NCBI GenBank assembly: GCA_030429345.1
Contig: JAUIFJ010000043.1
Location: forward strand, 1-24,443
DNA: 24,443 nt
Direction: 5' to 3'
Source: a bacterium
GTDB lineage: Bacteria; CAIWAD01
Positions 3,663-24,094 of the stretch are shown here, one piece after another (position 1 is the first letter of the stretch; every line of letters begins with the position of its first letter). Under the pieces are notes generated by a model that saw only the letters and a program-made list of their open reading frames with translations, was not told the DNA's origin and did no database searches. The position numbers and the translations under genes are program-made.

Positions 3663-4546
3663 GCCCCTGGCATGTCCCGCTGGAGGCCCTGCGTATTCTT
3701 GCGCGCAGCAAGGTGCGTGCCCTGCTGCTGCTCTGTGCTTCCGGCCTCTTCTGGTTCGTCGTCTGCCAGCTGCTCCTGCTCTGGGGCAGCAGTGGATCCC
3801 TGTCCAGCGGGGTCTTCCGCCAGGTCCCCGCGGATCTCTATCTCTTTCGTGATACAGAACCCGCCGACCTGGAGCGGCTGCGCGCGACGGTCGATTCGCT
3901 GAGCGAGATCGAATGGGGGCGCCTGATCACGCCGCAGGACGCCGCCGCCGATTTCCTGCGCGCCTTCGGCGAGGATCCGGAGGAGCTGCTGGGCGAGAAT
4001 CCCTTCCCCATGTCCGTCGAGCTGCGCCTGCGCCTGGGCGGGGATCGCCCGCGAATGGAAGAGCAGCTGCGCTTCCTGGCCTTCCAGCCGGCCGTCGAGG
4101 AGCTGCAGTACAGCCGCGGCCTGCTGGACAAGGTCAGCGGACGCCTGCGCCAGGGGACTTTCATCCTGCTGGCGTTGCTTCTTCTGCTGCTGGTCGGCGT
4201 GCTGCTTCTGCAACGGATGGCCTGGGCTTCGCAACTGCGCGCCTGGCGCCCCGAAATGGAGACCCTGGCGCGCCTGGGAGCCCCTCCGGCGGAAATCCGA
4301 AGGCCGCTCCTGTTGCTGGCCGTGATCCAGGGCCTGGTGCCCGCCCTGGCCGCCCTGGCCTGCAGCCTGGCCCTCGTCGGCCTGGCCGCCGGCATCGGCC
4401 TGCCGCTGCGCGCGCCGCTTTCGCTGTGGTGGATCCTGCTGCCGGCGGCGCTGTGGATGCCGCTGGTGGAGTGGAATCGGCAGGAGAAACAGCTGCGAGC
4501 TTCGTACTACGACAGCGGGCTGTTCGAGAGTCGTCGAAGCGTCTAG
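3659..4546 (+). CDS. ftsX: FtsX-like cell-division permease subunit
   Basis: This 295-residue inner-membrane protein has the four-helix FtsX layout. TM1 spans about 21-42, a periplasmic domain of roughly 110 residues follows, and then TM2 (about 166-186), TM3 (about 215-240) and TM4 (about 255-272). The periplasmic part contains DFLRAFGEDPEELLGENPFP followed by MSVELRLR, matching the conserved FtsX segment with an N-P-x-P core. After TM2, EMETLARLGAPPAEIRRP corresponds to the conserved cytoplasmic stretch of FtsX/MacB-type permeases. GGAGGAGG at 3647-3654 precedes the ATG, which overlaps ftsE as ATGA. The TAG stop at 4544-4546 shares bases with the TAG of the convergent GT2 gene. FtsX is often followed by an M23-type peptidase gene; here the polysaccharide block follows instead. 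Confidence 0.87.
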   Translation: MSPWHVPLEALRILARSKVRALLLLCASGLFWFVVCQLLLLWGSSGSLSSGVFRQVPADLYLFRDTEPADLERLRATVDSLSEIEWGRLITPQDAAADFLRAFGEDPEELLGENPFPMSVELRLRLGGDRPRMEEQLRFLAFQPAVEELQYSRGLLDKVSGRLRQGTFILLALLLLLLVGVLLLQRMAWASQLRAWRPEMETLARLGAPPAEIRRPLLLLAVIQGLVPALAALACSLALVGLAAGIGLPLRAPLSLWWILLPAALWMPLVEWNRQEKQLRASYYDSGLFESRRSV

Positions 4547-5709
4547 CGGCGGTCGGAAGGAGTCCAGATGCTGCTGTCGATTCCCTTCAGCCATTTCAGG
4601 AAACCCAGCAGGACCGCGAGATTCATCGAGCAGAAGTGATACGGCGCCGTCAGCAGGCGCAAGTCAAGAGCAAGTCGATCGGCCACTGCACCCAACAAGG
4701 CCAGGCCGTAGAATACGATTTGCGCCAGCAGGCACGCGCGAAAGAATTCGCCTTCGCCAGCCAAGGCCAGATTCGTAAAAAACGAAAGCGCCATCAGGTG
4801 CGGTGTAAACCAGCGCGGCAGTTTATGCGTCCAGAAAAAGAAGCTCTTCCATCCCCGCATCGGGTTCAGCAGCCAGCGATGCCACCAGAAGACCTGGTAG
4901 TTGCCGGCGCCGATGCGAATGCGCCGCTTGAACTCTTCGCTGATCCGCGTGCCTGTGATCTCGGTTGCTCGCGCCTCCAGATCCATGTAGACTTTCTTGC
5001 CGGAGCGCAGAACGTTCATGGCCGTCATCAAGTCGTCGTTCGAGAGACTGTTGCGGGGAAGTTCCTGCCAGCACTCCCGTCGTATAGCGTACAAGCCGCC
5101 ATGCGCTCCCATGACCGCGCCGAAGTGGCTTTGGATCGACTTGATGCGAACCTCGAAATCTCGATAGGTTGTCTCACCGCGGATCGTTCCTCCGGCGCGG
5201 GGCACCTCCCGCTCCTCGTAGCCACAGACGAGTCCGGTCTGCGAATCCTGGAACCAGCGTGCGAAGTTTCGGATTGTATTACGATCAAAGACAACGTTGG
5301 CGTCCGTATTGATGATGATGTCTGCTGGAATGCCGGGAATCGTTCGATTCAGGATCTGGACCTTCCCCAACCGCTCTTCGTAGCGCAGCAATCGAATGCG
5401 GGGATCGCCGGAAGCCTTCACGAGCTCGTCCGTTCCGTCCGTTGAATGGTCAGAGACGACGACCATCGCAAGGCGTTCCGGCGGATAGTCGATCTGCTGG
5501 AAATTGGCCAGTTTTTGCGGAATCACTCCTTCTTCGTTGTAAGCCGCAACAACGATGCAGAAGAAAGGGAGTTCCTTTGCCGGCGGATGAGGGCAGCGAT
5601 GCGGCGGCAGCAGGCGGATCAGCAGCAGACTCACCGGGTAGGTCCCGATCAGGATTGCGGTGCTTGTCAGGAAAATGACTGCCAACAGGAGCATGAATAC
5701 GGTTTCCAA
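4543..5709 (-). CDS. Membrane-anchored glycosyltransferase, family 2
   Basis: This 388-residue GT2 enzyme probably transfers sugar from a nucleotide sugar at the cytoplasmic face of the inner membrane. Residues 6-33 form an N-terminal membrane segment. The GT-A fold follows: AAYNEEG (55-61), SDHSTDGT (86-93), the metal-binding TDAN (135-138), the acidic NDD (224-226) and RRIRIGAGNYQ (262-272) in the place of the QxxRW motif of processive enzymes. Further hydrophobic segments lie near 305-316, 325-342 and 356-372. This architecture resembles cellulose/hyaluronan-synthase-like GT2s. The start is a TTG at 5709; an ATG at residue 6 (base 5694) is equally possible. The stop overlaps the ftsX stop tail to tail. 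Stretches of the gene are poorer in G+C than ftsEX. Confidence 0.88.
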   Translation of the reverse strand: METVFMLLLAVIFLTSTAILIGTYPVSLLLIRLLPPHRCPHPPAKELPFFCIVVAAYNEEGVIPQKLANFQQIDYPPERLAMVVVSDHSTDGTDELVKASGDPRIRLLRYEERLGKVQILNRTIPGIPADIIINTDANVVFDRNTIRNFARWFQDSQTGLVCGYEEREVPRAGGTIRGETTYRDFEVRIKSIQSHFGAVMGAHGGLYAIRRECWQELPRNSLSNDDLMTAMNVLRSGKKVYMDLEARATEITGTRISEEFKRRIRIGAGNYQVFWWHRWLLNPMRGWKSFFFWTHKLPRWFTPHLMALSFFTNLALAGEGEFFRACLLAQIVFYGLALLGAVADRLALDLRLLTAPYHFCSMNLAVLLGFLKWLKGIDSSIWTPSDRR

Positions 5710-5805
5710 GTGAAACGAAAGCAGGAAATATAGGTGTGCGTCAGCTAAAGACCTGCGAGTTGTGTGCGAGGAGCCGCTCGTACATTCAAGAGTTCATCAG
5801 GTCGT

Positions 5806-7731
5806 ATGTTGTGCCAACCTCGATACAGAACAGGACCGGAATTGATTCACCCGCGGGATTTGCTCCATCACGGCAGGCAGGCGCTTTTCTGCAGTGCCAG
5901 GAACCGCCACGCCCTTGCAGAAGTGCCTTCCCGATTCACCCCGGAGGCACGTTTCCTGCACATTCCGGAAAACGAAGAGTTGATGCGATGCGTGCATCTC
6001 GCAGGTGGTGTGAACCAGCTGCGCGAGGAATTCGAAGCCATCCTGGCGGGTCGCTTCACCTTTCTGGGGCGTTCGGTTGATTTTGACGGCTATCATCTGG
6101 ATTGGAATCTGGATCCTCAAAGCGGATTTCGTTGGCCCAGGCGCTACGCCTTTCTGCAGAATATCTACCGGACTCCGAAGGGGACAGACGTCAAAGCGCC
6201 ATGGGAGTTGAGTCGTTGCCATCATTTCATCTGCCTGGGGCTGTCGCACCGTGTCCTGGAGGATTCCAGAGCCGCAGAGTGCTTTCGCGTACATGTACAG
6301 GATTGGCTGCAGCAGAATCCCGTCGCTCGCAGCGTCCATTGGCGATCCGCGATGGAAGTGGCGATTCGCTCGGTGAACTGGATCGTGGCGGGCGAGTTTT
6401 TTCACGACAGCCTGAAAGACGAGCCATTCTGGAAGTCCTTCTACGGAAACCTGCTATTCAGCGCGCGCTACATTCGATCCAATCTCGAGAACCGGGAAGC
6501 GGATCGGAACAACCACTACCTCTCGAACCTGTGCGGCCTGCTGGTACTGTCCCTGCTCTTCGATGATCCGGGACTGTCGGACAGGCTGCAAGAGGAAGCC
6601 CGTTCCGGGTATGATTTCGCGCAAAGGGAACTGGAATGCGAACTGGAGCGCCAGGTCCTGCCCGACGGCATGAGCTACGAAATGGCTCCCGCCTACCAGC
6701 GCCTGGATTGCGAGATGCTCCTGTATACGCAGCTGCTTTGCCGGAATGCGGGCGCCCGGTTATCAGATCGTATTACCAGCAAGATCCGAGATATGCTTCG
6801 CGCCTTGTCGACCCTGGCGCAGGATGGACCCTTGCCGGGTTTCTCGGATGCGGATGACGGGCGTTTCCTTGTTTTCCGGGATTGGCGGAACTGGCCACGG
6901 GATCGCTGCAGCTGGCTCGAGCGGAGCTCCCGTCTCGCGCATGGTATCTGTTTCTCGTCTGGAGGGGATTCGGCGGCAGTCGAATCACTCCTGCTCGGCC
7001 TGGAGACTCAGCCTTGGGAAGGTCGGCCGCCGAAGGGCGTCGGTCCGGATCCGGCAGGCTTGCCCCTTAGCGGTTTTTTTCGCCTGGCCTCCGGCGACCT
7101 GGCGGTCTGGGTTCGTTGCGGCGCGGTCGGTGTGAACGGAAAGGGGACCCATGCCCACAATGACCAGTTGTCCTTCGAACTGTACTACAAAGGGGAAAAG
7201 CAACTGGTGGATCCGGGCACGGGCTGCTACACCTGTGATCCAGATGTTCGCGAGAGGTACCGCTCTACAGCGGCGCACAATACGCTGCGGATCCACGGAC
7301 TGGAGCAGAGCCCCCTGGACCGATCCCGTCCATTCCGCCTCGAGGAGCGCTGCCGGCCCCGCTGCATTCGGCACACGCCTTCCGAATTCGCTGGCGAGCA
7401 CGAGGGCTTCCATTCCGAATCCGGGTTCCGGCACGAGCGCCTGCTACGCCTCGATTCCGGCGGCCTGACAGTCGAGGACCGGTTGTCGGGCGAAGGGGAT
7501 CCGCCGATCGCGCACATCGGATTCCTATTCGATGCATCGGCCGGCCGCAACAGTCGAGACGAAGGGAACGAGCTGCGCATGGTTCTACAGGAGAGAGCCG
7601 TCACGGTCAAGGGCGCCGCCGCAATCGAATCCGCCACCTGGTCCCCTTCCTATGGGGTCTTCGTCCCGGGTTGTCGCGTCCAGGCCCAAATGCGAGAAAG
7701 CCTTTGCACGCGCATCGAGGTTGTTCCATGA
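5806..7731 (+). CDS. Heparinase II/III-like polysaccharide lyase family protein
   Basis: The 641-residue protein (from ATG 5806) resembles the heparinase II/III-like proteins found in exopolysaccharide loci. Members cleave uronic-acid-containing polymers by beta-elimination. The alpha-helical toroid half includes WELSRCHH (133-140), a VNWIV segment and NNHY (235-238). DGMSYEMAPAYQ (287-298) leads towards the beta-sheet half, which carries HAHNDQLSFEL (449-459), DPGTGCYTCD (469-478) and RSTAAHNTL (486-494), the conserved His/Asp/Tyr-rich core. No signal peptide or lipobox is visible, so a cytoplasmic location or unusual export is possible. The upstream GTG at 5764 would add 14 residues; neither start has a strong ribosome-binding site. 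It is divergent from the GT2 gene and is followed at 64 bases by the PaaK-like gene. The substrate is not readable. Confidence 0.84.
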   Translation: MLCQPRYRTGPELIHPRDLLHHGRQALFCSARNRHALAEVPSRFTPEARFLHIPENEELMRCVHLAGGVNQLREEFEAILAGRFTFLGRSVDFDGYHLDWNLDPQSGFRWPRRYAFLQNIYRTPKGTDVKAPWELSRCHHFICLGLSHRVLEDSRAAECFRVHVQDWLQQNPVARSVHWRSAMEVAIRSVNWIVAGEFFHDSLKDEPFWKSFYGNLLFSARYIRSNLENREADRNNHYLSNLCGLLVLSLLFDDPGLSDRLQEEARSGYDFAQRELECELERQVLPDGMSYEMAPAYQRLDCEMLLYTQLLCRNAGARLSDRITSKIRDMLRALSTLAQDGPLPGFSDADDGRFLVFRDWRNWPRDRCSWLERSSRLAHGICFSSGGDSAAVESLLLGLETQPWEGRPPKGVGPDPAGLPLSGFFRLASGDLAVWVRCGAVGVNGKGTHAHNDQLSFELYYKGEKQLVDPGTGCYTCDPDVRERYRSTAAHNTLRIHGLEQSPLDRSRPFRLEERCRPRCIRHTPSEFAGEHEGFHSESGFRHERLLRLDSGGLTVEDRLSGEGDPPIAHIGFLFDASAGRNSRDEGNELRMVLQERAVTVKGAAAIESATWSPSYGVFVPGCRVQAQMRESLCTRIEVVP

Positions 7732-7795: not shown

Positions 7796-9151
7796 ATGAG
7801 GCAGTGGATCCAGGAGCGCCTGAAGAGAATCGCGTACTACATCCCCCGGGAATTCTGGTATGGTCCCGGCTGTAGCCGGCAGTACCTGCGCCTCAAGCGC
7901 ATGATGCACGAGGACCCGGGCGTGATCCACCGCTGGCAGCGGAAACGTTTCAACACTCTTGCAAGAAGGCTTTCGAGGCGTAGCGACTACTGGCGGAAAA
8001 TCTTCCACAAGTGGAATCACGCGGCATCCAGTATGGAATGGCGGGAGCAGTTCGAATCCCTGCCCCTGCTGGACAAGAGGGATCTGCAGTCGTGCCTCGA
8101 AGAAATCAGCGTGGATGCCGGGAGCCCGGGGACCCGTTACATGACGACGGGAGGATCGACAGGCATTCCGACAGGATTCTACCTGAGGACCATCGCGGAC
8201 CAGCAGAAGGAGTGGGCGCACATCTGCTATCTGTGGTCACAGGTAGGCTTTCGATTTGGCGGCCTGAATCGGCGTGTTTCACTGCGCGGGGAGATCCTGC
8301 CCGGCAACGCGCTGGCCCTGCGCAAGGGGCATGAGCTGTTGTGTTCCAGCTTCCACCTTTCGAAGGAGAACCTTCCCCGGCTAATGCAAGTGATCCGCTC
8401 CTTCCGACCGCGTTTCCTTCACACTTTTCCTTCCGCGGCTCTGCGGCTGGCGGAATTGCTGGCCGGGGCGGGCGAGGGCCCGCCGCGAGGTCTCCGGGCG
8501 ATCCTGGCTTCTTCCGAATCCCTCCCGGACAAGCTCCGCTACGAGCTCGAGCGCTTTTACCGTGTTCCTGTCTATGCGCACTACGGGCATTCCGAACGGG
8601 CAGTCCTGGCAGGTGGATGTCGTCACTCCCCTTCCTACCACATTCTGCCGACCTACGGTCTTGTAGAACTGCTCGATGAACGCGGTCGCGTCATCCGTGA
8701 AGCCGGCCGATCCGGCGAGATCGTCGCCACCAGCCTGACGGCGGACCGGACGCCATTTATCCGCTTCAGAACAGGGGATTTCGGCGAATACGACGAAGGG
8801 CCTTGCCCCTGCGGCAGCCCGGTTCCGCGGTTGAAGGCCGTCCACGGCCGTCAGCAGGAATACCTTGAGCGCGAAGACGGTGTACAGGTCTCCGCGTCGC
8901 TTCTCAATCTGCACCTGGACATCCTCGACCAGGTGACGCAGGTGCAGTTCATCCAGGAGAGGCCGGGAGCAGCTGTCCTGTCGGTCGTGCCGCGACCCGG
9001 AACGGGCCGACTGGACAGGAAGGCCATCCTGCGGGCTTACGAGGAGCGACTGGGCAAGGGCTTTCTCCTCGAGCTGCAGGTGCGCGACCAGCTTCTGCGC
9101 ACACGATCGGACAAGACACTGCTGGTAGTACGAAGGGAGCCGCAAGAGTGA
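7796..9151 (+). CDS. PaaK/CapK-like adenylate-forming enzyme in a polysaccharide locus
   Basis: The 451-residue protein belongs to the phenylacetate-CoA ligase-like branch of adenylate-forming enzymes, which activate a carboxylate as an acyl-AMP. Motifs are the ATP-binding loop TTGGSTGIPTGF (117-128), YGHSER (263-268, matching the Y-x-x-[ST]-E motif), FRTGDFGEY (324-332), a small cysteine pair PCPCG (336-340), GRQQEY (351-356) at the hinge to the C-terminal domain, and a C-terminal lysine at 440. The ATG at 7796 follows GGGAG at 7784-7788 with seven-base spacing; an open frame continues upstream to 7532 but only shadows the heparinase gene. The end overlaps the next GT4 start as GTGA. CapK-like members occur in capsule clusters without a settled role. 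The substrate, and whether CoA is the acceptor, cannot be read. Confidence 0.86.
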   Translation: MRQWIQERLKRIAYYIPREFWYGPGCSRQYLRLKRMMHEDPGVIHRWQRKRFNTLARRLSRRSDYWRKIFHKWNHAASSMEWREQFESLPLLDKRDLQSCLEEISVDAGSPGTRYMTTGGSTGIPTGFYLRTIADQQKEWAHICYLWSQVGFRFGGLNRRVSLRGEILPGNALALRKGHELLCSSFHLSKENLPRLMQVIRSFRPRFLHTFPSAALRLAELLAGAGEGPPRGLRAILASSESLPDKLRYELERFYRVPVYAHYGHSERAVLAGGCRHSPSYHILPTYGLVELLDERGRVIREAGRSGEIVATSLTADRTPFIRFRTGDFGEYDEGPCPCGSPVPRLKAVHGRQQEYLEREDGVQVSASLLNLHLDILDQVTQVQFIQERPGAAVLSVVPRPGTGRLDRKAILRAYEERLGKGFLLELQVRDQLLRTRSDKTLLVVRREPQE

Positions 9152-10263
9152 ACCGGCGACCTGATATCCGTCTCTATGGGCCCTGGCCTCCGCCATTCGG
9201 TGGAGTCGCCGTGCATCTGGTCCGCTTGTCCCGCATGCTTGAAGCGAGGGGCCTTCGCATTCGTGTACACAACGAATCAAAAGTCAGGGGCGAGGCGCCG
9301 GACTTTGTTACACCGCATCTCAGCTACGGATTGCAGTTCGTACTCCAGCTGTTCCGACGACAGGGCATTCTGCATTCGCACACAAGCAACTGGCTGTTCC
9401 GTGCGATGCTCGGCCTGTACTCCCTGTGTGGGCAAACTGTCGTACAGAGCCTCCATGGGCGCGAGAACCTGATTCGGTTAAAGCGGGGGAATCCCCTGGT
9501 GCGCGTCCTGGTCGTATGGAGCTTTAATCGGGCGGCCAAGCTGGTGCTGGTGGGCGAGCACATTCGACCCCTCATGCGGGAAATGGGCATTTCCACGGAG
9601 CGCGCGGAAGTGATTCCGGCTTTCATCCCCCCATCGCCGGAAGAACTTGGTTCAGGCGTCCTGCCTTCGGCTGTCCGAGACTTCCGTGAGAGACATCGAC
9701 GGATCCTGGCAGCGAACGGAAGCATCGTGCTTTGGCCTGGTGGTGAGGATCTATACGGGATCCGCGACCTGGTTCTCGCCATGGAACGCGTCATTCGACG
9801 ACACCCGGACACGGGCCTCGTCATCTACCTGGCGAGGACGAACGAGATGGGCGAGGCCGAGAAAGCCTACCTGGGGAATGTGGAAAGGGAAGTCACGGAA
9901 AGCCCCGCCGCCAGAAACATCCTTTTGCATTTCTCTCGGGGAGACTCATTCATTCCCCTGCTGCAGCAAGCGGAGCTGGCACTGCGGCCGACTCGATCGG
10001 ATGGCGCGGACCTGACGACCCTGGAGGCCTTCTCGGTCGGATGCCCGGTTCTCGCCAGTGACTGCATTCCGCGGCAGCCGGGCTGCGAGATCCATCGCAC
10101 TGGCGACGTGGAACACCTTGCAGAGCGCATTGCCTGGTGCCTGGATCACAGGAAGGAGCTCGTCGCGGACATGCCGACAGCGGAACTGAGGGAACCTGCC
10201 GCGCGAATGCTTCAGTTGTACGGGCGCCTGCTCGGTCGCGATCTGCAAGGGCCCCCGGAATAG
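9148..10263 (+). CDS. Glycosyltransferase, GT-B fold, family 4-like
   Basis: This 371-residue protein looks like a retaining GT4 enzyme acting on a lipid-linked intermediate at the cytoplasmic membrane. The N-terminal Rossmann domain begins IRLYGPWPPPFGGVAVH (7-23), the glycine-rich acceptor-side loop. HSHTSNW (76-82) and SLHGREN (101-107) match the family's H-x-H and H-G positions. In the donor domain, SDGADLTTLEAFSVGCPV (284-301) aligns with the E-x7-E region, with Asp285 replacing the usual first Glu and Glu293 as the second. Start GTG 9148 overlaps the PaaK-like gene's stop, and AAGGGAG lies at 9133-9139. It ends ten bases before the convergent glycosyltransferase gene. The sugar donor is unknown. 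Confidence 0.85.
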   Translation: MNRRPDIRLYGPWPPPFGGVAVHLVRLSRMLEARGLRIRVHNESKVRGEAPDFVTPHLSYGLQFVLQLFRRQGILHSHTSNWLFRAMLGLYSLCGQTVVQSLHGRENLIRLKRGNPLVRVLVVWSFNRAAKLVLVGEHIRPLMREMGISTERAEVIPAFIPPSPEELGSGVLPSAVRDFRERHRRILAANGSIVLWPGGEDLYGIRDLVLAMERVIRRHPDTGLVIYLARTNEMGEAEKAYLGNVEREVTESPAARNILLHFSRGDSFIPLLQQAELALRPTRSDGADLTTLEAFSVGCPVLASDCIPRQPGCEIHRTGDVEHLAERIAWCLDHRKELVADMPTAELREPAARMLQLYGRLLGRDLQGPPE

Positions 10264-10273
10264 GAGGAAGTCT

Positions 10274-11491
10274 TCAGCTGCAGGTGTCGCCGACAAGCGA
10301 TCGATACAACGGGACTTGCCGTTCGACGATCCGGTCCCAGGTACGGTTGAGACGCACTTCCTCCAGCCCGTTTCTCACCAGGGATTCGGCCAAGTCCCGC
10401 TTCTCCAGCAGCCCTGCCGAAACCTCGATGAAGTGTGCCACGTCTTCCGGTCGGTGTAGCAGGCCGGTTTCGCCTTCCCTGATCAATTCCCGATGCCCGC
10501 CGATATCGCTCGCTATCACAGGTACGCCGGCGGCCATCGCCTCGAGAGGCTTCAGGGGCGTGACCAGCTCCGTGATGCGGCGGCTGGTGCGCGGAAAGAC
10601 CATCGCGTCCGCCAGTTTGTAGCACGCAACGATTTTCTCCTGCGGCACCCTGCCGGGAAGCAGAATCCTTTCTTCGAGACCCAATTCGCCTCTCAGCTTC
10701 TTCAGTGCCGCAAAGGATTCGCCTTCCCCGACCAGAAGCATTCGCAGACCGGGAAAGCGTCGAAGGAGATCCGGCATGGCGCGAACGGCCACCTCCAGCC
10801 CTTCGTAGTTGAAGAAGGTGCCGAAGAAGGCCAGAAGAGGTCCTTCGGACTTTCCGACCCATTCCCCGATAGCCGGTGGAGCCGTTTCGCCAGCTTGCGC
10901 GAAGCGCTCCACTTCCACGCCGTTGGGAACGACCTGGATTTTCCCCGGGGCGATCCCCCGTTCCGTCATTTCCTGCTTCAGGCCTTCGCAGATGGTCACC
11001 AACCCTTGGCAGCCCTTCGCCACCCGGGTCTCAAGCGCTCGCATGGCCCGATAGCGCGGGCTTCCTTCTCGGGTGGCGCCCTGGTCCACCTTGGCGTCCT
11101 CCCACAGGGCGCGCACCTCGTAGACAAGGGGGACGCCCCGTTCCCGGCAGACCGGCAGGGCGGCCAGTCCGGTCAAGGCCGGGCTGTGCGCATGCACCAG
11201 ATCCACGTCGTGTTCGCGCAGCAGGCTGGCCAGACGCCGGCGCAGACCAAGGATCACATCCGCCTGGTGAAGCAGCGGCAGTGAGGCAAGAATGCGGTTC
11301 GCGGGTGGCGTGCGATGAAAACGCAGTCCATCCACGGTGTCTGCCAGCTCGAGGCAGGGTCCCTGCTTGGAGCTGGTCAAGTGAAGCGTCTTCCAGCCCC
11401 GGCGGCGCTGGGCTCCGACCAGGCCCAGGCTGCGAAAGGTATACCCCGTGTAGCGGGGGGCGCTGTGATTGAAGATGTGAAGGATTTTCAA
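10274..11491 (-). CDS. Glycosyltransferase resembling exosortase-associated GT4 (Daro_2409 type)
   Basis: The 405-residue GT-B enzyme closely resembles, from memory, the glycosyltransferases annotated as PEP-CTERM/exosortase-A-associated. Matching features are MKILHIFNHSAP...GYTFRSLG at the N-terminus, WKTLHLTSSKQG (33-44), LVHAHSPAL (98-106), the segment YEVRALWEDAKVDQGATREG (124-143), TICEGL (166-171), VVPNGVEVERF (187-197) and ELVTPLKPLEAMA (308-320) followed by IASDIGGHREL. It probably adds a sugar to a lipid-linked exopolysaccharide repeat unit. The start is TTG 11491, supported by the family N-terminus, and overlaps the upstream ligase/polymerase stop (TTGA), so the two minus-strand genes form one transcription unit. 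No exosortase gene lies in this window. Confidence 0.88.
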   Translation of the reverse strand: MKILHIFNHSAPRYTGYTFRSLGLVGAQRRRGWKTLHLTSSKQGPCLELADTVDGLRFHRTPPANRILASLPLLHQADVILGLRRRLASLLREHDVDLVHAHSPALTGLAALPVCRERGVPLVYEVRALWEDAKVDQGATREGSPRYRAMRALETRVAKGCQGLVTICEGLKQEMTERGIAPGKIQVVPNGVEVERFAQAGETAPPAIGEWVGKSEGPLLAFFGTFFNYEGLEVAVRAMPDLLRRFPGLRMLLVGEGESFAALKKLRGELGLEERILLPGRVPQEKIVACYKLADAMVFPRTSRRITELVTPLKPLEAMAAGVPVIASDIGGHRELIREGETGLLHRPEDVAHFIEVSAGLLEKRDLAESLVRNGLEEVRLNRTWDRIVERQVPLYRSLVGDTCS

Positions 11492-12855
11492 TTCGGTTCC
11501 CGTACTCCAGGGGGCGATTCGACGGCTGTTGTATCGAGCCTTTCACGGCGGTGGCGATCCATCAAGGCCATCAACACCCAGAACCAGGTTGTCCATTTGA
11601 TGTCCAGGAAAATGGATTCGATCAGGCCGGCAAGCAGGTACAAGGCCAGTGAGAAGGCGAGGGATGCGCCCAGAAGGTCACCGCGCACGCGCAGGAGATC
11701 GAGCGGGCGATAAGAGAGAAGCACACGGCGTGTCACAAAAGCCAGGTAGACGAACATGCCGGGAATGCCGATTTCCATGGCCTTGTTCAGCACCACATTG
11801 TGTGCGTGAATCAGCTCGATCAGCGGAATGCGCGCAAACTGCAGGTAGACTTCGCGGAACTCGTTGATTCCAATTCCCGTGAGCGGAAACTGGGAAAGGA
11901 TTGCCGGACAGGTGCTCCAGGCAATAAAGCGCGCCGCCAGGCTGATGTCGAATGTCTGCGCGGAGAAGGTGTCGAAACGGCTGAAGAGAACCTGCACGCC
12001 GACGACGAGGATGGCGGAGCCGACAAGTGCCATGGGCAGCAGCACTTTCCGCAGGAGGCCGACGCAGCCCGCTAGTGCCAGTACCGTCATGCCGACGGCG
12101 AATCGCGTGTTCGTCAACACCATGGCAGCCATGAGCAGGGCGAAAAGCGTTCCATAAAGGACCGTGTTCTTCTCGCGGTTGACATAGTAGAGCGCGATGG
12201 GCACCAGGGCGGCCGATGTGTAGCCGGTCATGGTCACTGACATCTGAATGAAGCCGGCGACGCGGACGGCATCCGGATGCAGTAGTTTGTAGCACATGCT
12301 CAGCATGCCGACGATTGCATAGGCATACAGAAACCGCCGCAACAGCCGATCCACGAATCCCGCTTCCCCGGGATAGCACAGAATCAGCACATACATGGCA
12401 ACGGGAAAGACGTAGGACCCGATGTACGCCGGCAGCTGCTCCAAGGGCTGGCTGCTGTTCAGGCATCCCATTGCTCCGAATGCGAGAATCACCACCAGCC
12501 AGAGCTGCTCGCCCAGCGAGAGGCCGCTGCGAAGCAAGTTCAGGCGCGGCCAGCTGAGTGCCAGCAAGGCGAAAAGAAGCGGCAGGTAGATCCAGAACAG
12601 TCGGACATCCGCCTTCAGGTACATGAAGGGGAAGCACAAGAGGGCGACTTGAAAGGGATCGCGCAGCAGTAGCAGGAGGAGCAGTCCACAGAAAAACAGT
12701 GCCGGCGCAGCCAGGAACACCATTTTCCCAGGTTGAGTCTGGGGAACCAGAACGGCCTGGGCAAGCAGAAAGGCCGACAGGGAAGCGAGGCCGCCGAAAA
12801 AGAGGGGAACCCAGCGACGCTTCACGGAATCAGAAATTCGTCGCGATCCTGCCAT
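11488..12855 (-). CDS. O-antigen ligase / Wzy-type polymerase family membrane protein
   Basis: The 455-residue protein is hydrophobic through most of its length, with around ten or more candidate transmembrane helices. It carries the periplasmic loop signature of the Wzy_C (O-antigen ligase/polymerase) family: PLTGIGINEFREVYLQ, followed about 15 residues later by IHAHNVVLNKAMEIGIPG, around residues 325-365. Such proteins polymerise flipped repeat units or ligate glycan to a carrier on the periplasmic side of the inner membrane. With a Wzx-type flippase encoded divergently nearby, a Wzy role is plausible, but ligase and polymerase cannot be separated by eye. The ATG at 12853-12855 has a purine-rich GGAAAG about seven bases upstream on the minus strand. 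It is the first gene of the two-gene minus-strand unit. Confidence 0.87.
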   Translation of the reverse strand: MAGSRRISDSVKRRWVPLFFGGLASLSAFLLAQAVLVPQTQPGKMVFLAAPALFFCGLLLLLLLRDPFQVALLCFPFMYLKADVRLFWIYLPLLFALLALSWPRLNLLRSGLSLGEQLWLVVILAFGAMGCLNSSQPLEQLPAYIGSYVFPVAMYVLILCYPGEAGFVDRLLRRFLYAYAIVGMLSMCYKLLHPDAVRVAGFIQMSVTMTGYTSAALVPIALYYVNREKNTVLYGTLFALLMAAMVLTNTRFAVGMTVLALAGCVGLLRKVLLPMALVGSAILVVGVQVLFSRFDTFSAQTFDISLAARFIAWSTCPAILSQFPLTGIGINEFREVYLQFARIPLIELIHAHNVVLNKAMEIGIPGMFVYLAFVTRRVLLSYRPLDLLRVRGDLLGASLAFSLALYLLAGLIESIFLDIKWTTWFWVLMALMDRHRRERLDTTAVESPPGVREPN

Positions 12856-12953: not shown

Positions 12954-14261
12954 TTGCTGAGAAACATCCTGCACATCCTGGGCAACCGCTTCGTGGTACG
13001 CCTCGCCAATCTGGCCCTGGCTATCGCGCTGGCGCGGGTTCTGGGGCCGGCAGACCAGGGCGTGGTCAACTTTCTGATCATGCTTTCCGGCCTGCTGTTC
13101 ACATTCGCCATCCTGGGTTTCGACGCCGGCGCAATCTACTTCCCCCGCAGGGAAAGCATGCCTTCCGCGGAGTACCAGCGTCGCGTCTTTCCGATTCTGT
13201 TGGCGAGCTGCATCCTGGTTTGCGTAGGGCTGCTTTTTTGCGGCGCTGCGGGAGTGCCAGGAATCGCGCAGTACGGCCTCCCCTTGTTGGGGATGGTTGG
13301 AGGGCTGGTGGCTTGTGATGCCTATGTGAATGTCATCAAGCAGCAATGCCTGGTGCGGGACGATGTCTCGGCCTTCAATCGAGTGGAAAGGATCCAGGCC
13401 TTCGGCATGCTGCTGCTCGTCGGCATCGCGCTGATTCTGGAACCGACGCCCGGCGGAGTGCTGTTTGCCGTGCTGCTCAGCCGCCTGTTCCTGGTGGCCT
13501 ACGCCACCCGACAAGCGGAAGTCCGCCTGATGGCCTTCCGGCTGGCCGGAACACGCCGGATTCTTGAGTATACCCTGAAACCGTGGCTGGGCAACCTCTT
13601 CAGCTTGATGAACCTGCGCCTGGACAGCCTGATGATCTCCTGGTTCATTGGACTTTCGCTCGGCGTGGAAGCGGCCGACTTGGGATTGTATACCATTTGC
13701 GTCCTGGCGGTCAGCAGAGTGCAGGATCTGCAGGCGGCCATCCTGACGGCGCTTTTCCCTGCCGTGGCGGGCCTGGAGCAGAAAGAGGGCGCTCGCCTTT
13801 CGGCCAGGACTTATCGCCTGTCAGGGCCGGTCTTTCTGCTGCTCGCCCTGGCCCTGGTCGTCTTCGGGTACCCGACGCTCTGGATCTTCGGGCCGGAGTA
13901 TACGGCGGCCTACCCGGTGCTCTGCGTTCTGGCCATCGGGTCGGTGGCCGTTAGGGCGAACATGGGCAGCCTGGCCGTGTATCTTAGCTCGATCGGTCAG
14001 CCGGGCATTCCGACCCTGGTCAATCTCTTCGGTGTGCTCTCGAACCTGTTCCTGAATTACCTGTGGATTCCGCGCTACGGGATTCTCGGAGCCGCCCTGG
14101 CAACGGCCTGCTCGGCCGCGCTGGTCAAGGGTATCCTGCTTGTCTGCTACCTGCATGTCACACGCCTGTCCTGGTGGCACGACCTTCGCATCCAGGGAGA
14201 TGACCTGCGGGATCTGCTGGCGCGCTTCAGGCGCTGGCGCAGCAAGGAGACTGTCGCATGA
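12954..14261 (+). CDS. Wzx-type polysaccharide flippase (MOP superfamily)
   Basis: The 435-residue integral membrane protein has repeated hydrophobic segments over its whole length, fitting the 12-14 helices of MOP/Wzx exporters. The N-terminal half starts NRFVVRLANLALAIALARVLGP followed by DQGVVNFLIMLSGLLFTF, typical of polysaccharide_synt-type flippases. Conserved later segments include LGNLFSLMNLRLDSLMISWF and FGPEYTAAYPVL, then YLWIPRYGILGAALAT near the C-terminus, a strong family hallmark. It would move lipid-linked repeat units to the periplasmic leaflet for the Wzy-like protein. The start is TTG 12954, as an in-frame TGA at 12939 leaves little room upstream. It is divergent from the ligase/polymerase gene across about 98 bases. 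Its stop overlaps the foldase lipoprotein start as ATGA. Confidence 0.87.
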   Translation: MLRNILHILGNRFVVRLANLALAIALARVLGPADQGVVNFLIMLSGLLFTFAILGFDAGAIYFPRRESMPSAEYQRRVFPILLASCILVCVGLLFCGAAGVPGIAQYGLPLLGMVGGLVACDAYVNVIKQQCLVRDDVSAFNRVERIQAFGMLLLVGIALILEPTPGGVLFAVLLSRLFLVAYATRQAEVRLMAFRLAGTRRILEYTLKPWLGNLFSLMNLRLDSLMISWFIGLSLGVEAADLGLYTICVLAVSRVQDLQAAILTALFPAVAGLEQKEGARLSARTYRLSGPVFLLLALALVVFGYPTLWIFGPEYTAAYPVLCVLAIGSVAVRANMGSLAVYLSSIGQPGIPTLVNLFGVLSNLFLNYLWIPRYGILGAALATACSAALVKGILLVCYLHVTRLSWWHDLRIQGDDLRDLLARFRRWRSKETVA

Positions 14262-21898: not shown

Positions 21899-24094
21899 AT
21901 GCTGCAAGTCACACAGACCATGCGCACCGGCAAGGTTGAAATGCTGGATGTGCCCATACCCACCCTGCACGACCGATTCGTGCTGGTCCGGAATGCCGCG
22001 AGCGTCATCAGCGCCGGCACCGAGAAAACCAAGATCGACATGGGCAAGAAGAGCATGATCGAGAAGGCCAGGGCGCGTCCGGACCTGGTCAAGCAGGTCG
22101 TGCGCAAGCTCAAGGCCGAGGGCCTGGGCAAGACGATCAATACGGTCAAGGCCAAACTCGATTCGCCCGGGCCGCTTGGCTATAGCTGTGCCGGCATCGT
22201 CCTGGCTACGGGCGGACTGGTGCCGGGAATCCAGCCCGGAGACCTGGTGGCCTGCGGCGGAGGCGGCTATGCCAACCACGCCGAAGTGGTCGCCGTACCG
22301 CGCAACCTGGTGGTCAAGGTGCCGGAGGGGGTCAGCGCGGACGAAGCCGCCTTCACGACGGTCGGTTCCATCGCCCTGCAGGGCCTGCGTCTTGCCGAGC
22401 CCTTGCTGGGCGAAACCTTCCTCGTGCTGGGGCTGGGTCTGCTGGGGCAGATCACGGTGGAGCTGCTGCGGGCCAATGGCTGCCGCGTGCTGGCCACCGA
22501 CCTGGATGCCGACCAGGTGCGCCGGGCGGAAAGCCGGGGCGCCATCGGGCTCATGCCGGGCAGCGACATCGAGGCCGCCTGCCGCGACCTGACGGGCGGA
22601 CACGGCGTCGACGGCGTGCTGGTGACGGCCGCCACCTCGAGCAACCAGCCGATCGAGCTCTGCGGAGCTGTCACACGCTCCAAGGGCCGCGTGATCGTGG
22701 TCGGCGCCGTGCGCATGGATATTCCTCGCGAGGACTACTTCAAGAAGGAGATCCGTGTCGTCATTTCGCGCTCCTACGGTCCCGGACGCTACGATCCCTT
22801 CTACGAGGAGCAGGGCAACGACTACCCGATGGGTTATGTGCGCTTCACCGAGCAGCGAAACATGCAGGCCTTTCTCGAGCTGGTGTCACAGGGCAAGGTC
22901 AACATCAAGAACCTGACCACGCATCGTTTTCCGGCTTCACGGGTCGACGAAGCCTACCAGCTGATCGAGGGACAGAAGACCGAGCCCTACCTTGGGATCC
23001 TGCTGCAGTACGACACGGCCCGGAGCGGCTCGACGAAGCCCGCCGAGGTCCCGCGGGCGCCGGCGCGGGTCGACGGCAAACTGGGGCTTTCCGTATACGG
23101 TGCCGGCAGCTACGCCACAGCGACCCTGCTGCCACTTCTCAAGAACGACAGCGGCGTGTCCCTCCGGGGTCTGGCGACGGCAAGCGGCCGCACGGCACGC
23201 GGGGTGGCCGACCAGTTCGGATTCAGCCACTGTGCAGAAGACCTGGCGGGGCTTCTTGACGAAGGGACCGACGCCCTGCTGGTCGCCACTCGCCATGACA
23301 CCCACGCGCCCGCCGTGGTGCAGGGCCTGCAGGCCGGGCGGCATGTATACGTGGAGAAGCCGCTGGCCCTGAGTGTCGACGAGCTGCGTGCTGTGCGACA
23401 GGCCTCGCTGCAGGCGCCGGGGCGCCAGCTGATGGTCGGCTTCAACCGCCGCTTCGCTCCCGCGGCCCGGGAGGTGCTCGAGCACTTCGCCGCCGTGCCC
23501 GGCCCCCGCGTGATCCAGATGCGGGTCAATGCCGGCTTCCTGCCGCCCGACCACTGGACCCTTGACCCGCAAAGCGGCGGCGGCCGGATCATCGGCGAGG
23601 GCTGCCACTTCGTCGACCTGGCCACGGCCCTGGCCCGCTCCCTGCCGGTGAGCGTGCACAGCTACGGCGTCTCTAAGCCGGGAGTCGCCGCCCTGCTCAA
23701 CGACAACGTGACCATCAGCCTGGCCTTCGCCGACGGCAGCGTGGCCAACATTGTCTACACGGCTGGCGGCTCGAAGGCCTTGAGCAAGGAATACGTGGAA
23801 GTGCACGGCGGCGGACGCAGCGCCGTGATCCACGACTGGAAGGAATGCGTGCTCTACTCGGGCGACGACAGCACGACGCGCAACACCCTGCGCGTGCAGG
23901 ACAAGGGACAGGCCAACATGATCGCCGCCTGGCTCAAGGGCCTGCGCGAGGGCACTCCCTGCGTGCCGGCCGACGAGCTGCTCGCCGTCAGCCTGGCGAC
24001 CGTGCTCTCTGTCGAGTCCCTTGCCCTGGGGACGCGGCTCGACGTGGACCTGTCGATCCTCGACACCGAGGCCACCGGAGAAGGCGGAGAGTAG
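21899..24094 (+). CDS. Two-domain oxidoreductase: MDR-type dehydrogenase fused to Gfo/Idh/MocA
   Basis: The 731-residue protein joins two NAD(P)-dependent domains. Residues 1-372 are a medium-chain dehydrogenase with GPLGYSCAGIV (91-101), GDLVACGG (114-121) and the nucleotide loop GLGLLG (178-183). The catalytic zinc Cys (SAGTE replaces the usual CGSD region) and the four-cysteine structural zinc loop are absent. Residues 395-731 are Gfo/Idh/MocA-like: VYGAGSYATATLLPLL (399-414), the catalytic-lysine motif VEKPLALS (485-492), GFNRRFAP (514-521) and GEGCHFVDL (567-575). Proteins of this layout are known from polysaccharide gene clusters, often near heparinase-like genes, and probably oxidise or epimerise sugar nucleotides. 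AAGGGAG at 21888-21894 precedes the ATG. The substrate is unknown, and a role with the block at 4543-14261 is inference. Confidence 0.9.
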   Translation: MLQVTQTMRTGKVEMLDVPIPTLHDRFVLVRNAASVISAGTEKTKIDMGKKSMIEKARARPDLVKQVVRKLKAEGLGKTINTVKAKLDSPGPLGYSCAGIVLATGGLVPGIQPGDLVACGGGGYANHAEVVAVPRNLVVKVPEGVSADEAAFTTVGSIALQGLRLAEPLLGETFLVLGLGLLGQITVELLRANGCRVLATDLDADQVRRAESRGAIGLMPGSDIEAACRDLTGGHGVDGVLVTAATSSNQPIELCGAVTRSKGRVIVVGAVRMDIPREDYFKKEIRVVISRSYGPGRYDPFYEEQGNDYPMGYVRFTEQRNMQAFLELVSQGKVNIKNLTTHRFPASRVDEAYQLIEGQKTEPYLGILLQYDTARSGSTKPAEVPRAPARVDGKLGLSVYGAGSYATATLLPLLKNDSGVSLRGLATASGRTARGVADQFGFSHCAEDLAGLLDEGTDALLVATRHDTHAPAVVQGLQAGRHVYVEKPLALSVDELRAVRQASLQAPGRQLMVGFNRRFAPAAREVLEHFAAVPGPRVIQMRVNAGFLPPDHWTLDPQSGGGRIIGEGCHFVDLATALARSLPVSVHSYGVSKPGVAALLNDNVTISLAFADGSVANIVYTAGGSKALSKEYVEVHGGGRSAVIHDWKECVLYSGDDSTTRNTLRVQDKGQANMIAAWLKGLREGTPCVPADELLAVSLATVLSVESLALGTRLDVDLSILDTEATGEGGE

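Follow-up and report, generated by a model that had tools for sequence, protein, structure and literature searches.

The capK-type gene and its neighbourhood

The window, by which we mean the whole stretch of 24,443 nucleotides analysed here, is the entire length of a 24 kb contig and carries on its forward strand an open reading frame with an ATG start and a TGA stop, whose product we call P0001 (Table 1). The gene is surrounded by glycosyltransferase, Wzx and Wzy genes, and no second PaaK/CapK-like match was found in the 4.2 Mb genome to which P0001 belongs. The initial annotation had described a PaaK/CapK-like adenylate-forming enzyme inside a glycan block, with an intact ATP loop, Y-x-x-S-E motif and RTGD motif and an overlap with the next glycosyltransferase gene. 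This description is borne out by the reading frame, by the motifs, which stand at the expected places, by family and fold matches and by the neighbouring glycan genes.

Table 1. Features of the window, with motif and residue positions of P0001
Feature	Position	Strand	Basis or remark
GT2 glycosyltransferase flanking the block	4543..5709	-	Profile
Heparinase II/III-like protein, directly upstream of the capK-type gene	5764..7731	+	Catalytic-type motifs NNHY (249), EMAPAY (306) and HAHND (463) present
CapK/VpsH-type (PaaK-like) adenylate-forming enzyme P0001, 451 aa	7796..9151	+	ORF, family scores, tree, model
P-loop TTGGSTGIP, residues 117-125	8144..8170	+	G120 invariant in 121 relatives
YGHSE, A5-type motif, residues 263-267	8582..8596	+	Alignment
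RTGD, A7-type motif, residues 325-328	8768..8779	+	D328 invariant
CPCG, residues 337-340	8804..8815	+	Cys pair present in ~100 of 121 relatives
QFIQ (Q384, Q387), QxxQ signature in C-terminal domain	8945..8956	+	Polysaccharide-clade signature
Lys440, A10-type catalytic lysine	9113..9115	+	Alignment; Asp439 before it
GT4 glycosyltransferase	9148..10263	+	GTG start at 9148 overlaps stop of P0001 gene by 4 bases
GT4 glycosyltransferase, convergent, TIGR04063-like	10274..11491	-	438 bits, cut-off 442
O-antigen ligase/polymerase-like membrane protein (Wzy_C)	11488..12855	-	Profile
Wzx-type polysaccharide flippase	12954..14261	+	Profile
Bi-domain oxidoreductase (zinc-type ADH + Gfo/Idh/MocA), frequent CapK companion	21899..24094	+	13 kb away, at contig end

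A profile scan found no acyltransferase and no wecB/wecC-type genes in the polysaccharide block, and no sugar-acid dehydrogenase or epimerase in the window; two nucleotide-sugar dehydrogenases scoring over their family cut-off are present in the genome, both on other contigs. An exosortase (XrtA/PEP-CTERM) locus, suggested by the TIGR04063-like glycosyltransferase, was ruled out, a search of the genome for exosortase (PF09721) having found none.

The P-loop, Y-G-x-x-E, R-x-G-D and C-terminal lysine of the ANL superfamily are all found in P0001. Loss of ATP-binding residues in homologues, which the initial annotation had named as a finding that would tell against its reading, was not seen: the equivalents of G120, E/D267, R323, D328 and K440 are retained across 127 aligned relatives, the sole exception being K440R in one sequence. 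Judged by these residues, P0001 is an adenylating enzyme with an intact core.

Family scores and predicted fold

Every NCBIfam score of P0001 lies far under the respective cut-off, and the matching models are mostly those of CoA ligases. These include the DVU_1553 family AMP-dependent CoA ligase model NF045666 (120.5 bits, E 8e-35, curated cut-off 300) and the curated PaaK model TIGR02155 (49.1 bits, cut-off 646.3). The Pfam model PF00501 gives 28.7 bits against a gathering score of 29.9; two clear relatives likewise fall short and a third has no match.

A phmmer search against the PDB returned 4r1l as the best sequence match (E 4e-25), which like the match to NF045666 goes far beyond chance. 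The AlphaFold model of P0001 (pLDDT 91.5) matches PaaK folds with Z scores of 25-30 over ~300 residues, the nearest being 4r1l, PaaK1/2 and 2-hydroxyisobutyryl-CoA ligase (Z ~29), followed by the aryl ligases NatL2, AjiA1 and ClxA (Z 25-26) and, in a third tier, by plant GH3 acyl-acid amido synthetases (Z ~16). Sequence alignments to solved PaaKs mostly stop where the C-terminal domain begins, and as read from these alignments this domain of P0001 departs from that of the CoA-forming PaaKs.

That the closest solved folds and most of the matching family models belong to CoA ligases is in keeping with the main alternative to the reading developed below, namely that P0001 is an acyl-CoA (or acyl-carrier) ligase feeding a separate acyltransferase, which would attach an unusual acyl residue to the polymer through an amino or hydroxy group. 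We consider this unlikely, although it is the strongest of the alternatives: none of the scores approaches its cut-off, and the block in the window is free of acyltransferases.

A polysaccharide-linked clade distinct from catabolic PaaK

In a tree of 127 sequences the catabolic PaaKs (E. coli, Haloferax, Thermus, Bacteroides and Azospirillum), together with three database relatives, form one clade, which is split off by a branch with support of 100 and a length of 1.58 changes per site. P0001 lies deep within the non-catabolic clade, in the company of over 100 homologues, of which many come from polysaccharide loci across numerous phyla. The A8-type loop RGVNxFP is present in all eight members of the catabolic clade and absent from 118 of the 119 members of the polysaccharide clade, P0001 having EREDGVQVSAS in its place. 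Conversely, the QxxQ pair (Q384/Q387), which we define here as a signature of the polysaccharide clade, occurs in 99 of its 119 members and in none of the eight catabolic sequences. The tree and these residues place P0001 in a distinct, widespread, polysaccharide-linked clade of CapK/VpsH type.

In related enzymes the RGVNxFP loop belongs to the C-terminal domain, whose turning lets CoA in. That the polysaccharide clade has lost this loop suggests a second half-reaction probably unlike that of PaaK, and weighs against P0001 as a supplier of acyl-CoA.

A catabolic role was the other finding that had been named as fatal to the initial reading. A phenylacetate or other aromatic-acid ligase could have come to lie beside glycan genes by chance, as its superfamily membership and the label 'phenylacetate--CoA ligase family' carried by many databases might suggest. 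We regard this as very improbable, given the fully supported branch between P0001 and catabolic PaaK, the residues that distinguish the two clades and the repeated occurrence of homologues next to glycosyltransferases across phyla; phenylacetate catabolism is rejected for P0001 on its tree position and its TIGR02155 score.

The family itself is known already, its members being named CapK or 'phenylacetate--CoA ligase family protein' in databases and vpsH of Vibrio cholerae bearing the former name. The suggestion of undescribed chemistry is fair for the reaction of the CapK/VpsH-type clade; the protein, a member of a widespread family, is not new in kind.

Relatives and their loci

A search of genome contigs with P0001 alone returned no relatives, while a profile built from a four-sequence alignment recovered 80 further loci, spread over many phyla and including some archaeal ones; an alignment of 12 sequences was too diverse for patterns. 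Homologues from whole-genome and plasmid searches share ~22-32% identity. The annotated plasmid loci (in Sulfitobacter, Pseudoalteromonas, Shinella, Sphingobium, Methanohalobium and Methanosarcina) are exopolysaccharide clusters, each with a GT4 gene that often adjoins the CapK homologue. By Pfam, the direct neighbours of the homologues include GT4 glycosyltransferases, DUF362 proteins, bi-domain oxidoreductases, sugar dehydrogenases and heparinases, and the gene run CapK - bi-domain oxidoreductase - heparinase - GT4 is found in Sphingobium and in one further genome (G046). A polysaccharide locus is not obvious for every homologue: 43 of 96 loci lacked all six of the companion families that were scored, in some cases owing to a short contig.

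Several arrangements recur or stand apart. A run of CapK, DUF362 and nucleotide-sugar dehydrogenase genes, the latter two downstream of the CapK gene, was seen at six loci (L068, L070, L071, L078, L079 and L082, the middle gene of L078 being placed without an individual Pfam scan) in metagenome-assembled genomes of Chloroflexota, Acidobacteriota, Verrucomicrobiota, Planctomycetota, Treponema and Kryptonia. DUF362 proteins have, to our knowledge, no described role in polysaccharide loci. Six consecutive PaaK-like genes, one expanded paralogous group, lie at L054 (G020:C27), and exopolysaccharide loci of Zoogloea (L117, L121) carry two or three CapK-type genes each, those of L117 from different subclades. 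An asparagine-synthase-type partner was seen at one locus only (L031).

The initial annotation had proposed a survey of co-occurrence with heparinase-like and two-domain oxidoreductase genes. As controls we took 40 loci picked by an O-antigen ligase (PF04932) in the relatives genome set, scanned with the same profiles, and compared stretches of at least 15 kb. The CapK loci, 60 in all, stem mostly from genomes other than those of the controls, which makes the comparison a rough one. With that reservation, both kinds of gene are enriched, as is DUF362: heparinase-like genes were found at 15 of 60 CapK loci but at none of the 36 controls (p 0.0008), bi-domain oxidoreductases at 8 and 0 (p 0.02) and DUF362 at 11 and 0 (p 0.006). 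Within one genome set, the window's own genome left out, 4 of 11 CapK genes had a heparinase no more than 6 kb away, compared to none of 43 O-antigen ligase genes in heparinase-bearing genomes (p 0.001). Sugar dehydrogenases were weakly enriched (14/60 versus 2/36, p 0.03), an excess that is absent in the same-genome subset (1/17 versus 2/36), and phosphoglycosyl transferases did not differ between CapK loci and controls. Acyltransferases tended to be commoner near CapK genes (14 of 60 loci versus 3 of 36 controls, p 0.10), which speaks for an acyl-CoA ligase paired with an acyltransferase.

vps-type clusters and the VPS polymer

In vps-type clusters the CapK homologue occupies the place of Vibrio vpsH; at L035 it stands beside VpsD and VpsF family proteins, both over their cut-offs. 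In V. cholerae, vpsH (VC0924) is annotated CapK (PMC12505965), and one paper calls it a predicted participant in export, with no test there (PMC5109742). The repeat of VPS, a biofilm polymer, contains 2-acetamido-2-deoxy-guluronic acid (GulNAcA) amidated with glycine, and the authors of that structure assigned vpsB to uronic acid formation and vpsC and vpsG to O-acetylation, leaving the glycine amide without a named ligase (PMC3901696). An amide-linked serine is likewise part of the V. vulnificus capsule (PMC7247339). Our search of open-access papers found no function named for CapK/VpsH and no enzyme for the amide bond between a uronic acid and an amino acid.

A VpsJ-like protein recurs in the collected loci (L032:17065-18270, L035:17183-18346 and L109:13114-14307), one record of which carries an aspartate-semialdehyde dehydrogenase label that looks wrong. 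The homologues are predicted to fold into an (alpha/alpha)6 toroid resembling those of GH76 and sugar 2-epimerases, and have weak matches to C5-epimerase, GH88, pectate-lyase and uronate-acting families; on its modelled fold this protein is a candidate uronate epimerase. A reductase route through the supposed aspartate-semialdehyde dehydrogenase was dropped on the same grounds. Since the VpsJ-like protein, the one other product of the cluster left with no assigned role, appears to fold as an (alpha/alpha)6 sugar enzyme, CapK is left as the only enzyme seen in the vps-type cluster that could activate a carboxylate, an argument by elimination drawn from the L032 and L035 homologues, ~25% identical to P0001, and not from V. 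cholerae VpsH itself. The acetyltransferases of such clusters account for the O-acetyl groups and leave the glycine amide over, a further point against acyl-CoA supply.

A proposed reaction

Taken together, the evidence points to the joining of an amino acid or other amine to an acidic sugar rather than to the breakdown of phenylacetate. Specifically, we propose, with about an even chance of being right, that P0001 adenylates a uronate and passes it to an amine, giving a uronamide. ATP would be used to activate the carboxylate of the uronic acid as an acyl-adenylate, the uronate being nucleotide- or lipid-linked and not yet polymerised, and an amine (glycine, another amino acid or ammonia) would attack the adenylate directly. 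The uronamide unit would then be built into the repeat by the adjacent glycosyltransferases, and the repeat that bears it exported and joined by Wzx and Wzy. The suggestion in the initial annotation of an acyl or amide substituent, or of uronic acid activation, is consistent with the evidence, which favours an amide on a uronic acid.

In support of uronamide formation, the heparinase-like partner fits a polymer that bears uronic acid, the block in the window has no acyltransferase and the genome has its two nucleotide-sugar dehydrogenases. Against it, the sugar-acid enzymes lie outside the window, the excess of sugar dehydrogenases disappears in the same-genome subset and acyltransferases show a trend towards greater frequency around CapK genes. 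P0001 itself also lies on a long branch and has Asp439, Phe211 and Ala316 at clade-conserved sites, the first of these (9110-9112) replacing, just before the catalytic lysine, a glycine that is near-invariant (116 of 121 relatives).

The activated uronate might instead meet a different fate, being reduced, esterified or used to cross-link chains, or AMP might be transferred as F390 synthetase does. Both F390 synthetase and ester-forming synthetases belong to the PaaK-like superfamily (P0001 has weak matches to TIGR03335 and NF041217), and an activated acid could be a substrate for the oxidoreductase companion. We think such a fate improbable, however, as the bi-domain oxidoreductase does not belong to a family of acyl-thioester reductases and the sole polymer of known structure that is linked to the clade has an amide.

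Extending uronamide formation to the clade as a whole is a more tentative step, to which we give somewhat less than an even chance: its members may constitute a family of ATP-dependent uronamide ligases that join amino acids or ammonia to the sugar acids of surface polysaccharides in many bacterial phyla and some archaea, partnered by heparinase-like or (alpha/alpha)6 proteins, bi-domain oxidoreductases or DUF362. If so, the presence of a single gene would be enough to predict that the polysaccharides of very many bacteria carry a charge-altering substituent, and a bond of unknown origin, that of the VPS glycine and V. vulnificus serine amides, could be tested with a single soluble enzyme.

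Comparison with known systems

Among known systems, the vps-type homologues of VpsH/'CapK' (VC0924) at L032 and L035 share with P0001 the PaaK-like clade, the core residues and QxxQ, and their genes likewise lie in exopolysaccharide clusters with a GT4 gene adjoining. The one at L032 is the Pseudoalteromonas gene L032:14668-15993. They differ in sequence (~25% identity), and the block in the window lacks wecB/wecC-type genes. PaaK (TIGR02155; PDB 2y27, 2y4n, 2y4o) has the adenylating domain fold, the motifs and the catalytic lysine in common with P0001, which for its part lacks RGVNxFP, falls in a separate clade far under the family cut-off and has no paa genes beside it. The putative acyl-CoA ligase BT_0428 (PDB 4r1l) is the best fold match (Z 29.7 over 306 residues, 2.5 A) at 19-24% identity; its IKGVN aligns it with the PaaKs, and its C-terminal domain diverges from that of P0001.

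NatL2, ClxA and AjiA1 (6siw, 9s45 and 6wuq) have a PaaK-like fold like that of P0001, their C-terminal domains falling outside the alignment, and in ClxA, too, the RGVNxFP loop is missing from the part that aligns. We take these three to be ligases of secondary metabolism, acting on aryl acids and not on sugars, rather than enzymes of phenylacetate catabolism. The GH3 acyl-acid amido synthetases have an adenylate-forming fold like that of the P0001 model and make direct amide bonds to amino acids. Although they are plant hormone enzymes of 550-600 aa, distant in fold and with no family membership in common, they serve as our working model for the reaction of P0001.
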